Source: Desulfovibrio fairfieldensis (GTDB lineage Bacteria; Desulfobacterota; Desulfovibrionia; Desulfovibrionales; Desulfovibrionaceae). Taken from it: a stretch of 64,000 nt of DNA. The DNA lies in assembly GCF_001553605.1 (NCBI RefSeq), contig NZ_CP014229.1, positions 2,012,501-2,076,500 of the forward strand. Direction: 5' to 3'. The notes under the pieces were generated by a model that was given only the letters and a program-made list of their open reading frames with translations, was not told where the DNA came from and did no database searches. The translations under genes and the position numbers were made by a program. Numbering within the stretch: position 1 is the stretch's first letter; each line of letters opens with the position of its first letter. Below are positions 16,488-50,815 of this stretch, piece after piece.

Positions 16488-18107
16488 ATGAGCAAGAAAA
16501 AGGAAACACTGGGAAGGTTCAAGAAACAGTGCATGGTGGTCCTGCTGGCCGCCGGCCTGTTCCTGGGCGCAACGGGGAGCGCCAAGGCCATTGATTTCAA
16601 GGCCCAAGGCGAATGGCTGGTGGGCTTCGGCGCCGGTGACGACTCGCTGATCAGCAAAATGAATGACAAAGGCGCCAGCAAACAGAAGGCTGACAGCGAC
16701 GACAAGTTCGCCGCCGCACAGCGCGTCCGTCTGCAGATCGACGCGGTGGCTTCCGAAGCCCTGTCCGGCACAGTTTTCTTTGAGATCGGCGACCAGACCT
16801 GGGGCAAGGCTGACGAAGGCGGCGCGCTGGGCGCGGACGGCAACGGTGTTATCAAGCTGAAGAACGCCTACATCGACTGGATGGTGCCCCAGACCGACCT
16901 GAAGCTCCGTATGGGCCTCCAGGCCGTGGCCCTGCCCAACGTGGCCGGCGGCTCCGCCGTCATGGACGGCGATGTGGCCGCCGTGGTGGCCAACTACAAG
17001 TTCAACGAGAACGTGGGGCTCACCGCCCTCTGGATGCGCCCGGTCAACGATAACTACTCGGGCTGGCTGGATGCCAATGACAATCGCCGGGAAGCAAATT
17101 ACCTGGACAACATCGACCTCTTCGCCCTGAGCCTGCCGCTGACCTTCGACGGTTTTGAAATCACGCCCTGGGTCATGTACGGCATGATGGGCAAGAACGC
17201 TCTGGACGGCCTGGATGCCGACGACAATAGCAACCCCTGGTCCCGGCCCGGCAGAGCCGGGAGTAACCAGTGGGGCACAGCGGACGGCGCTCTGAGTTAT
17301 ACCCTTAACGGACTGTATCCGGGCTTCAATCACAATGGTCTGGGGAGCACCAGCAAGGCCTACGGTTCCATGTTCTGGGCCGGCCTGCCCATCGCCATCA
17401 CGGCTCTGGATCCCTGGAACTTCGAGCTGGATCTGAATTACGGCTACGTGGAAGCCATGGGCCGCTTTGACGTGGAAAAACGCTTCGGCTCCGGCGACTG
17501 GAAGCGCGGCAGCACCGAGCGTCAGGGCTTTCTGGCCAAGGCCCTCGTTGAATACAAGATGGAATGGGGTGTTCCCGGCATCTTCGGCTGGTACGCATCG
17601 GGCGACGACGGCGACGTGAAAAACGGTTCCGAACGCATGCCTTCCATTGCGGCCGCGGGCAACTTCACCTCCTTCATGGGCGACGGCAACTTGGCCTGGG
17701 CCCCCAATGGGGCATGGTATGACCGCGATCTGAGCTACGCGGGCACCTGGGGCGTGGGTCTGCAGATCCGTGATATGAGCTTTGTGGAAGATCTCAAACA
17801 CACTTTCCGCGTGGCCTACTGGGGCGGCACCAACAGTCCCTCCATGGTCAAGTACATGGACAGTTCCACGGCCTGGAGCTCCGGCTACGGCACCAACGAC
17901 GGCCCGTATCTGACCACCAACGACGGCCTACTGGAATTCAACCTGGTCAACTCCTGGCAGATCTACGAAAACCTGGAAGCCAACCTGGAACTGGGCTACA
18001 TCGTCAACATGATTGACGACGATACCTGGAAGAAAGGCTATATGCCAGATTCCTACGAGAAGCAGGACGCCTGGAAAGCTCAACTCGTCTTTGCCTATAC
18101 CTTCTAG
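16488..18107 (+). CDS. Outer membrane porin, Desulfovibrio-type homotrimeric family
   Basis: This 539-aa outer-membrane beta-barrel protein starts with a signal peptide (basic MSKKKETLGRFKKQ, hydrophobic core, cleavage near GSAKA-IDF). The mature part is rich in alternating polar/aromatic strands typical of porins, such as 'VRLQIDAVASEALSGTVFFE' and 'LKLRMGLQAVALPN'. The last residues 'KAQLVFAYTF' end in Phe, the usual signal for barrel assembly. It resembles the abundant porins of Desulfovibrionaceae that admit small solutes such as anions and organic acids. The strong AT-rich promoter region suggests high expression. Its TAG stop is the first part of the palindromic element at 18104-18255. 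Confidence 0.85.
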   Translation: MSKKKETLGRFKKQCMVVLLAAGLFLGATGSAKAIDFKAQGEWLVGFGAGDDSLISKMNDKGASKQKADSDDKFAAAQRVRLQIDAVASEALSGTVFFEIGDQTWGKADEGGALGADGNGVIKLKNAYIDWMVPQTDLKLRMGLQAVALPNVAGGSAVMDGDVAAVVANYKFNENVGLTALWMRPVNDNYSGWLDANDNRREANYLDNIDLFALSLPLTFDGFEITPWVMYGMMGKNALDGLDADDNSNPWSRPGRAGSNQWGTADGALSYTLNGLYPGFNHNGLGSTSKAYGSMFWAGLPIAITALDPWNFELDLNYGYVEAMGRFDVEKRFGSGDWKRGSTERQGFLAKALVEYKMEWGVPGIFGWYASGDDGDVKNGSERMPSIAAAGNFTSFMGDGNLAWAPNGAWYDRDLSYAGTWGVGLQIRDMSFVEDLKHTFRVAYWGGTNSPSMVKYMDSSTAWSSGYGTNDGPYLTTNDGLLEFNLVNSWQIYENLEANLELGYIVNMIDDDTWKKGYMPDSYEKQDAWKAQLVFAYTF

Positions 18108-18255
18108 GGCGCGTTAACACTACTGGGATTTTGTTCGCTGGCTAGGAAAACGACCCTTTTATGAAGGGAGCGTACTCTTACGGTACGTGACCGGAATAAA
18201 AGATGAAGTTCGACGACGCCAGCGGGCGAAAGAACGTAGTGTTAACACGCCCTAG
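18104..18255 (+). repeat. Palindromic structured element E, copy 1
   Basis: This is an imperfect palindrome of about 152 bases. The outer arms are CTAGGGCGCGTTAACACTAC and its complement near 18233-18255. Inside, GCTGGC/GCCAGC, CTTTTAT/ATAAAAG and CGTAC/GTACG stems surround the conserved segments AGGAAAAC and ACTCTT. It begins in the porin stop codon. A second copy at 50259-50389 shares the layout and unpaired segments but has different arm sequences that still pair. Confidence 0.75.
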
Positions 18256-35672: not shown

Positions 35673-36428
35673 TGTATTTGCCTCGTTGGTTCGCGGGGAA
35701 AGGCCCTGGGGCCGTCCCGTCAGTGTTTGGCGATTTGTTCCAGGATGCAAAACGCGCGCCGTCGGAAAACCGGCACCGCCGCGTCCGCGCAAAAAATGCG
35801 GAGCGCAACGGCATCAGCGCCGCGCAATCGGTACAGGGAACCGGCAGAAAGAGAGGGAAAACATCCGCGCCACGGCCGAAACGCGCCTGAAAAGCGCGCC
35901 CGGCGCGGGAAGAGCGGCGGACAATTTCATTGAGGTCGCAAATACGCGATCACTACGGCAACGCAGTGCCGGCAGGAACGGTGTGTTGCGGGAATCTCTT
36001 TAAGAGGCGTAAGGAGTACGCCCGGGAAGGCTGAACGGGCGAGCCTTCGGGACAGCTCGCGCTATGGCTGGAGACACGTTTTTGGCGTATATGCTTTCAC
36101 CATGCACTTTCTTAATAGGCAGCCCGCGCGGTTCTGTCAAGAGGAAAACCGCGCGGGGCACCGGATTACAGCCGGATCAGGGCCTTCTGGCATTTTCAGC
36201 GGCGAAATGCTCCGGGGACTGTTTCCGAATCAAGGAATCTTCCCTTTCAGCCAGGAAAGCAAGCATGTTGCGAAAGGCATATGCCCCAACGGCACGCGAC
36301 AGGAGCAAAAAGCGCGATTTGTTTCAGCCGTTGGCGGCTATGCCGCCTTACGGATAAAGACAGCATCGATGACAGCGCCGCAAGGCAAAAAAACATGAAA
36401 ATACATCCCGGCGGCACACGGACTGATA
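35673..36428. other. 756-base intergenic region upstream of the adhesin
   Basis: No convincing gene is seen; open frames here are short and lack homology or ribosome sites. The region must hold the adhesin promoter (minus strand). No sigma-54-type or c-di-GMP riboswitch pattern is recognisable. At 36335-36355 there is a 21-base exact match (on the other strand) to 8553-8573, part of repeat family A. The segment 36000-36070 has a local palindrome around GCGAGCCTTCGGGACAGCTCGC. Confidence 0.6.
36322..36365 (-). repeat. Dispersed repeat family A, inverted copy
   Basis: Read on the minus strand this gives TGCTGTC...ATCCGTAAGG then CGGCATAGCCG. It shares 21 contiguous bases with 8553-8573 and a related layout with 52124-52190 (ATCCGTAG...GCAACGGCTGAAG). 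It is probably a mobile intergenic repeat. Confidence 0.6.
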
Positions 36429-50258: not shown

Positions 50259-50389
50259 CATTAAAAAGACGGATTTTGTCCCCTGGCAAGGAAAACAAGT
50301 TTTTTACGACGGGAGTGGACTCTTTTCGTCCATGGCCAAGTAAAAAACGCCGTTTGACGCCGCCAGGGGACAAAAGACGCTTTTTAATG
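50259..50389 (+). repeat. Palindromic structured element E, copy 2
   Basis: The arms CATTAAAAAGAC...TTTTGTCCCCTGGC pair with GCCAGGGGACAAAAG...CTTTTTAATG. Inside are GTTTTTTAC/GTAAAAAAC and TGGAC/GTCCA stems around AGGAAAAC and ACTCTT, in the same order as 18104-18255. It overlaps the stop codon of the small membrane protein gene and separates it from the Cache kinase gene. Confidence 0.75.
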
Positions 50390-50815
50390 GCCGCCGGCGA
50401 CGAGAATCCCCGAAGCCGCCAGACTCAACACCAGCACTTCCAGCAGAGCGATGGTCGTCATCAGCCATTGCTTGCGCCGGATCAGGCTCCAGGCCAACTG
50501 CAAAAAGCAGATGATGGTCAGGGCCGCCAGAAACACGATGCCCAAGAAATTGCATATATCGCCCTTGCCCACCAAGGCAAGCCAGCCCCAACCCTGCGGG
50601 ATGTGCCCGGCGGCGCGGTAGTCGGCAGCGCTGCCGGTCCAGAGGCGGGGCAGTTCGGTCAGGGGCACCTGCGGTTCAAGCACGCCCAGCACATAGAGGG
50701 CGTAGGTGACGAGCATAAGCACAAACCCGATGAGCGCGCCGTAAAACAGGGTGTCGGCATAGCGCAGTTGCGCGGGCGAGGCCTTGATTTCTTTTTTCAG
50801 ATCCACGGTATTCAT
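50384..50815 (-). CDS. Small membrane protein, partner of TauE/SafE-like exporter (DUF1634-like)
   Basis: This 143-aa protein has three hydrophobic helices: 'FYGALIGFVLMLVTYALYVL', 'FLGIVFLAALTIICFLQLAW' and 'IALLEVLVLSLAASGILVA'. Proteins of this size and layout (DUF1634) often accompany TauE/SafE transporters, and this one follows such a gene by 27 bases on the same strand. An AGGAGA site precedes the ATG. It is possibly an accessory subunit. The DUF assignment is tentative because it rests on topology and context. Its TAA lies inside palindromic element E. Confidence 0.7.
   Translation of the reverse strand: MNTVDLKKEIKASPAQLRYADTLFYGALIGFVLMLVTYALYVLGVLEPQVPLTELPRLWTGSAADYRAAGHIPQGWGWLALVGKGDICNFLGIVFLAALTIICFLQLAWSLIRRKQWLMTTIALLEVLVLSLAASGILVAGGH

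Follow-up and report, generated by a model that had tools for sequence, protein, structure and literature searches.

A dispersed, probably MITE-like palindromic repeat of Desulfovibrio fairfieldensis that keeps its fold, varies its arms and often lies at stop codons

The palindromic element that follows a porin gene in Desulfovibrio fairfieldensis is probably one copy of a non-autonomous, MITE-like family of mobile DNA, with a folded core of about 113 bp between self-complementary arms. At least 137 sites in the 3.70 Mb genome match a covariance model of this family at E ≤ 1, a count drawn from the 150 candidates scored out of 1648, and copies gather at the stop codon of a gene antisense to the element. 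It is new for a MITE-like family to unite covarying stems in the core with arms that interchange and with a preferred place at stop codons. The window analysed is a stretch of 64,000 nucleotides, positions 2,012,501-2,076,500 of a genome consisting of one contig of 3,699,310 bases (G000:C1 in coordinates).

Table 1. Elements of the family in the window (window positions), and related end pairs elsewhere on the contig
Feature	Position	Strand	Remarks
Copy 1, left-end TA	18105..18106	.	Overlaps the TAG stop codon of the porin (ORF 16488-18107)
Copy 1, left arm	18107..18122	+	Terminal inverted repeat of the GGGCGCGTTAACACTA kind
Copy 1, folded core	18123..18236	+	Covariance-model match, 105.8 bits (G000:C1:2030623-2030736)
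Copy 1, right arm	18237..18252	+	Pairs with the left arm of copy 1
Copy 1, right-end TA	18253..18254	.	
Copy 2, left arm CATTAAAAA	50259..50267	+	7 nt from the start of a sensor-kinase gene (minus strand; own gene call)
Copy 2, folded core	50268..50380	+	Covariance-model match, 111.4 bits (G000:C1:2062768-2062880)
Copy 2, right arm TTTTTAATG	50381..50389	+	
Probable degraded third copy	36232..36345	+	Weak model match, 32.6 bits, E 3.5e-4
AGCTGTTTCTAAATT-like inverted pairs	G000:C1:241338-241460, 365207-365542, 679113-679342, 758673-758979		

An earlier note on the window had described two palindromic elements. Both were found where it placed them, and both are long imperfect hairpins whose arms are complementary within a copy and different between copies; the segments the two share and the five compensating stem pairs are all present. 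The predicted fold of copy 1 (-71.6 kcal/mol, z -8.0) and that of copy 2 (-64.7 kcal/mol, z -10.6) were each equalled by none of 200 dinucleotide shuffles, and the complementary strands fold almost equally (-60.7, z -7.1, and -60.6, z -10.1, respectively). The bounds of copy 1 could be refined to a TA dinucleotide at each end, the first lying inside the TAG of the porin. The right arm of copy 2 takes in the stop codon (50384-50386) and the last sense codon of the minus-strand gene at 50384-50815. In BLAST searches of the genome (E ≤ 1), copy 1 gave 50 matches and copy 2 gave 34, many of them partial; three relatives of copy 1 are near-identical to it (98-99%). The 3' part of the probable third copy runs into another repeat (CTTTATCCGTA ... 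ACGGCTAAAGC), which interrupts or replaces parts of this copy and its 3' flank, as it does parts of copies at the loci L011, L014, L015, L008, L030 and L023.

The model search that the earlier note had proposed was carried out with 34 hand-bounded copies, and the family proved to be dispersed in the genome and among its relatives. Matches at E ≤ 0.001 occur in 20 of 61 relatives, with up to 61 matches recorded per genome. In a wider draw from the class, with up to 12 per genome, 87 of 297 genomes have matches at E ≤ 1e-5, representing 19 of 53 genera; even within the same genus, many genomes give no match. The core measures 102-116 nt in most model matches, and 26 of the cores in the genome are identical. 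Rfam gave no match above gathering threshold in the window or at four further loci (L031, L009, L082 and L044), and the best match of copy 1 (E 0.82) was below gathering, so the belief that the fold belonged to no catalogued family held for Rfam. No published description of the family was found in the open-licence literature, which is weak evidence of absence, nor did open-licence papers yield anything on MITEs or IS5 insertion sequences of Desulfovibrio, a genus that PMC10969869, PMC3733652 and PMC12306157 do not mention. One locus of another genome (L094 in G026, 1501-2220) carries five element matches in tandem, four of them at 152-bp spacing, in an array that ends at a stop codon. In G017, a divergent second type (GCGCAGTTGTTTCGTTTGGCAAGGCGCG...) lies near ordinary copies at L110, L256 and L265.

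The stems covary well beyond chance. In the 34 copies, aligned by sequence alone, standard pairs occupy 92.7% of 1184 pair cells (74.2% in shuffles), two-sided change is seen in 28 of 35 pairs, and 207 cells have two-sided change against 56 in shuffles. The covariation score of 0.548 compares with 0.193 for shuffles and with 0.100-0.145 for slid versions of the structure, over which the structure is favoured by having been derived from the same alignment. Scores of 0.601 (0.202 shuffled) for 102 distinct rows of this genome and 0.587 (0.181 shuffled) for 80 distinct rows of relatives come from sets aligned to the model, which lean toward the structure. Covariation that had been noticed between two copies thus extends to many copies and species. 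Mean conservation is nearly equal in unpaired columns (1.16 bits) and paired columns (1.11 bits), and certain single loop positions are conserved at 0.9-1.0, so that conservation of the loops is local; the internal loops of the core have motifs that recur.

Several unrelated kinds of arm, most of them self-complementary, occur with this one folded core. Random arm mismatches in further copies, named in the earlier note as evidence that would count against selection on the fold, were not what was found: a copy's own arms pair with a score of at least 6 in 79 of 102 distinct copies, as against 5 of 816 combinations in which arms were swapped between loci. By a strict criterion, 16 copies have private arms unlike all others, and 12 of these 16 score at least 6; the number of private copies is a strict minimum, as the arms were clustered by single linkage, which lumps 71 copies. 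Among the private-arm copies, 14 of 16 lie no more than 25 nt from an antisense gene's stop codon, and 15 of 16 have an antisense gene on each side. In the other 86 copies, antisense stops outnumber sense stops by 47 to 4, and positions between antisense genes outnumber those between sense genes by 51 to 12. Since arms reach into stop codons, the arms were considered as inverted copies of the target, and this was set aside because both the near and the far arms differ at orthologous sites. An origin of the arms in pre-existing terminator hairpins was likewise rejected, there being no T-run beyond the arms in the loci read by eye.

One subfamily, that with identical cores, bears marks of mobility. 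Its ends are GGGTCTGTTAACACTA and GGGCCTGTTAACGCTA, and the arm pattern TAGGGNCTGTTNACNCTA occurs at 53 and 54 sites on the two strands (at most two mismatches), compared with 1 and 2 for the reversed control. One pair of subfamily ends, 827 bp from end to end, flanks two ORFs that lie in different frames and match DUF4096 ('putative transposase of IS4/5 family') and DDE_Tnp_1; we take this element to belong to the IS427 subgroup. Its transposase, split over two frames, may be inactive or may use a frameshift. TA flanks both ends of 24 of the 26 identical-core copies, and the site of the copy at 2755120 is empty in the four relatives examined (G029, G025, G062 and G007), with a single TA at the junction; this TA is part of the neighbouring gene's stop codon or next to it, and G029 and G025 are also without some of the spacer. 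The subfamily therefore has what is expected of an IS5-type MITE: inverted repeats in common with an insertion sequence of the same genome, a short target duplication and an empty site. The 16 private-arm copies do not: their inverted repeats are shared with no known insertion sequence, and the loci inspected show no target duplication. Directly observed are the number of copies, the identity of recent cores, the inverted repeats in common with the insertion sequence, the TA at either end and the one locus empty in four relatives; we infer that an IS4/5-family transposase moves the element. In recent subfamilies, the arms would be terminal inverted repeats used by such a transposase, whose TA target would often belong to a stop codon.

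Other arm kinds are GAGCTGTTTCTAAAT, for which no partner element was found, GGTGTCGTCATGAG and GGAAGCGCTGATTAAT. A cognate insertion sequence for the arm AGCTGTTTCTAAATT was sought, and none of the 49 sites listed pair at 0.7-1.5 kb. At four places outside the list of model matches (Table 1), AGCTGTTTCTAAATT-like ends stand 122-335 bp apart in inverted orientation; these are possibly other short elements with the same ends. An IS630-type transposase was rejected as the mover, a search of the genome with PF13358 having given no match. A RAYT-like transposase had been suggested as a thing to look for, and the genome does have 13 Y1_Tnp genes at 13 places; ten are of equal score, and the set probably represents a multi-copy IS200-type element rather than one RAYT. 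The aminotransferase gene beside copy 1 has 80 related loci, at best 54-59% identical (in Desulfovibrio and Desulfovibrionaceae MAGs), none close enough to give an empty site of copy 1. Many identical-core copies adjoin half of a small palindromic repeat (GAGCATTTCAACTTTG / CAAAGTTGAAATGCTC), for example at G000:C1:3173946 and 3213501, as if inserted at the end of the repeat.

A folded RNA under selection would tolerate G.U but not A.C, so the two mismatches were compared. Over all pairs, read on the sense strand, one-sided departures are G.U 258 times and A.C 113 times in the rows of this genome, and 110 and 68 times in relatives. Nearly all of this G.U excess stems from three pairs, which favour the sense strand; with these wobble-preferred pairs set aside, the counts become 103 against 107 in this genome and 59 against 59 in relatives. 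The rule was to omit pairs with at least 25% G.U and is only approximately the same for the relatives, where the three pairs stand at 20-25%. Copies beside an antisense stop codon have 50 G.U against 63 A.C, and other copies 45 against 38. SRP RNA from the same class (25 distinct sequences), used as a control, gave 43 G.U against 15 A.C under the same rule and 140 against 17 over all pairs. Because G.U and A.C are about equal outside the three pairs, in contrast to SRP RNA, resident copies show no RNA-strand signature there; the three wobble pairs themselves do not fit complete symmetry between the strands. At G136:C59:14574-15167, one genome has three equally scoring SRP RNA matches at 249-bp spacing.

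Close copies differ by one-sided changes, and two-sided changes build up with distance: one-sided changes stay at about 3-5 per compared pair over the identity range 0.40-0.90, while two-sided changes rise with divergence. This pattern is read as neutral decay of landed copies, together with pairing kept in the spreading lineage. Landed copies would gather one-sided changes without preference for G.U over A.C, as the mismatch counts suggest, and in the spreading lineage pairing is probably kept either because a DNA hairpin or cruciform is needed or by restoration through arm-to-arm template copying. The earlier proposal of selection on a folded RNA or single-stranded DNA, and not mere duplication, is thus changed in two respects. 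Its RNA part is not supported by the mismatch counts, and a folded single-stranded DNA stage may still be involved; the dismissal of mere duplication has to allow for recent multiplication, as 26 cores are identical and copy 1 has three relatives of 98-99% identity.

Placement was analysed with gene calls from our own codon-usage script, trained on eight genes of the window. The strands of the flanking genes relative to the element are (-,-) in 83 of the 137 matches, (+,-) in 27, (+,+) in 17 and (-,+) in 7, with a side missing in 3. The 3' arm has a stop codon no more than 12 nt away in 58 of 137 matches, copy 2 among them, and the 5' arm has one as near in 5, including copy 1, which thus has the minority orientation with a sense stop codon at its left arm. 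Where the gene on the 3' side is antisense (83 distinct copies), 58 copies abut its stop codon, compared with 14.9 (sd 2.9) expected if copies were spread evenly over the spacer; the corresponding figures for the 5' side are 4 observed and 3.5 expected. The distance from arm to stop is -1 to -4 in 36 of the 58 abutting copies. Thirty-six loci of relatives, inspected by eye, have an antisense stop (of a frame of at least 300 nt) within 12 nt of the 3' arm in 21 cases and the mirror arrangement in 3; nine of the 36 come from other genera (L373-L378 and L380-L382), and six of these nine have such an antisense stop. This bias toward one orientation counts against the MITE-like reading, as symmetric ends inserting at TA leave it unexplained. 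Copies would end up, or survive, at the stop codon of a gene antisense to the element, whose transcript would gain a long hairpin past the stop; a putative effect of this hairpin on the mRNA is possible.

Orthologous sites were compared in two ways. For the spacer between rpmI and rplT, 41 genomes were searched, 40 matched, and 30 loci were taken, of which 29 were readable. An element follows rpmI directly in five of these 29 (G000, G029, G002, G011 and G013), with differing stems, and G025 has an apparent remnant. The spacers of G017 and G023 have no model match and start at the stop codon with what by eye appears to be a complementary arm. In G029, 12 of the 17 loci listed among its 55 matches correspond by flanking DNA to an element locus of D. 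fairfieldensis, the twelfth (L248) doubtfully, its immediate flanks having failed to align. Among the eleven compared in detail, six have the same element, with a core identity of 0.886-0.974 against 0.78-0.86 at fourfold sites, and five have a different element with different arms (core 0.526-0.719, fourfold sites 0.68-0.88). The replaced cores are far under fourfold identity at three of the five (525612, 542988 and 3534173) and close to it at two (1024877 and 3564989), where gradual change is possible for this reason, although stem type and arms differ. Well-matching flanks place one of three G013 loci and four of 20 G017 loci at a site occupied in D. fairfieldensis, and in each case the element is a different one. 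In same-element orthologs, changes affect 20 of 420 paired positions and 23 of 262 unpaired ones; A.C is involved oftener than G.U, in small numbers. That the six surpass their neighbouring fourfold sites hints at constraint on resident copies.

Such constraint would suit a functional hairpin in intercistronic mRNA, which, as reported for REP sequences, might protect the upstream mRNA, slow ribosomes at the stop or separate the expression of neighbouring genes. It also gains from the excess of antisense stops, from the 83 of 137 copies that lie between two antisense genes, among them pairs whose protein names we recognised (rpmI-rplT, frr-uppS and yebC-ruvC), from the five rpmI spacers, and from the loci shared with G029. 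Yet the copies adjacent to stops favour no wobble pairs on the transcript strand, and the rpmI-rplT spacer is without an element in many relatives; we consider this explanation possible, if clearly less probable than mobile DNA.

Less likely again is a purely mutational origin, in which replication copies one arm onto the other and gives rise, with no selection, both to two-sided changes and to arms that reach the stop codon. The process is described in PMC8794818, the two-sided changes are symmetric between strands, and arms do often enter the stop codon. Against this, copying would erase mismatched loops, some of which are highly conserved here, close copies differ mainly by one-sided changes, and both arms and the core cannot be swapped at once by template switching.

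A wholesale exchange of this kind is what is claimed by a further reading, one we regard as improbable to a similar degree: a mobile core of folded DNA would home to stop codons, with a single orientation relative to transcription, would make or acquire new self-complementary arms at each landing and could be exchanged as a whole at occupied sites, the core being recognised as folded DNA and the ends of different insertion sequences being only later vehicles. Repeated insertion at shared permissive sites would also give the same pattern of turnover. A conserved structured RNA, either a non-coding RNA or a riboregulator, that had multiplied is very improbable and was rejected as the leading sole explanation: covariation, a stable fold and a preference for G.U at three pairs speak for it, but G.U equals A.C elsewhere, stop-adjacent copies included, unlike in SRP RNA, no curated Rfam family matches, there are hundreds of copies and both strands fold.

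Returning to the MITE-like reading, several known repeats invite comparison. ERIC (RU-1), RUP and related repeats are imperfect palindromes of 100-170 bp, intergenic and with TA-type targets; compared by description alone, ERIC and RUP resemble the family in size, palindromy and intergenic place, and to our knowledge neither family-wide covariation nor variable arms have been described for them. IS5-family MITEs (PMC10969869) are likewise short, non-coding and intergenic, with ends in common with a transposase element, TA at both ends, near-identical recent copies and stem-loop transcripts. The present family differs from them in having one covarying folded core with several unrelated ends, many ends found at one locus only, and strong stop-codon placement in one orientation. 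REP sequences or BIMEs with their RAYTs (PMC3733652 and PMC12306157) are multi-copy, palindromic and often adjoin stop codons; those within 15 nt of a stop codon act on translation (PMC12306157, citing Liang et al. 2015), and an unpaired GTAG or CGTC tag at one end belongs to their definition (PMC3733652). In these accounts they are hairpins of 20-40 bp, much shorter than the core described here with its ends, and the several Y1 transposases of this genome are only candidates for a relation to the element. The template switching invoked for RNA hairpins in PMC8794818 is a proposed mutational source of long stems and compensatory change; it does not concern a mobile family, and stop-codon placement is not explained by it.

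The family would be an intergenic repeat, widespread in one bacterial class, that puts long hairpins into ordinary operon transcripts directly past stop codons. If the homing and exchange reading were true, site and fold would persist while sequence changes, and mobile DNA would have a route to one harmless place in an operon. RNA function and the propagation of DNA can each conserve a fold, and the analysis also separates these two causes of covariation; the comparison of G.U with A.C tells them apart here, and is usable on other repeats described as covarying.
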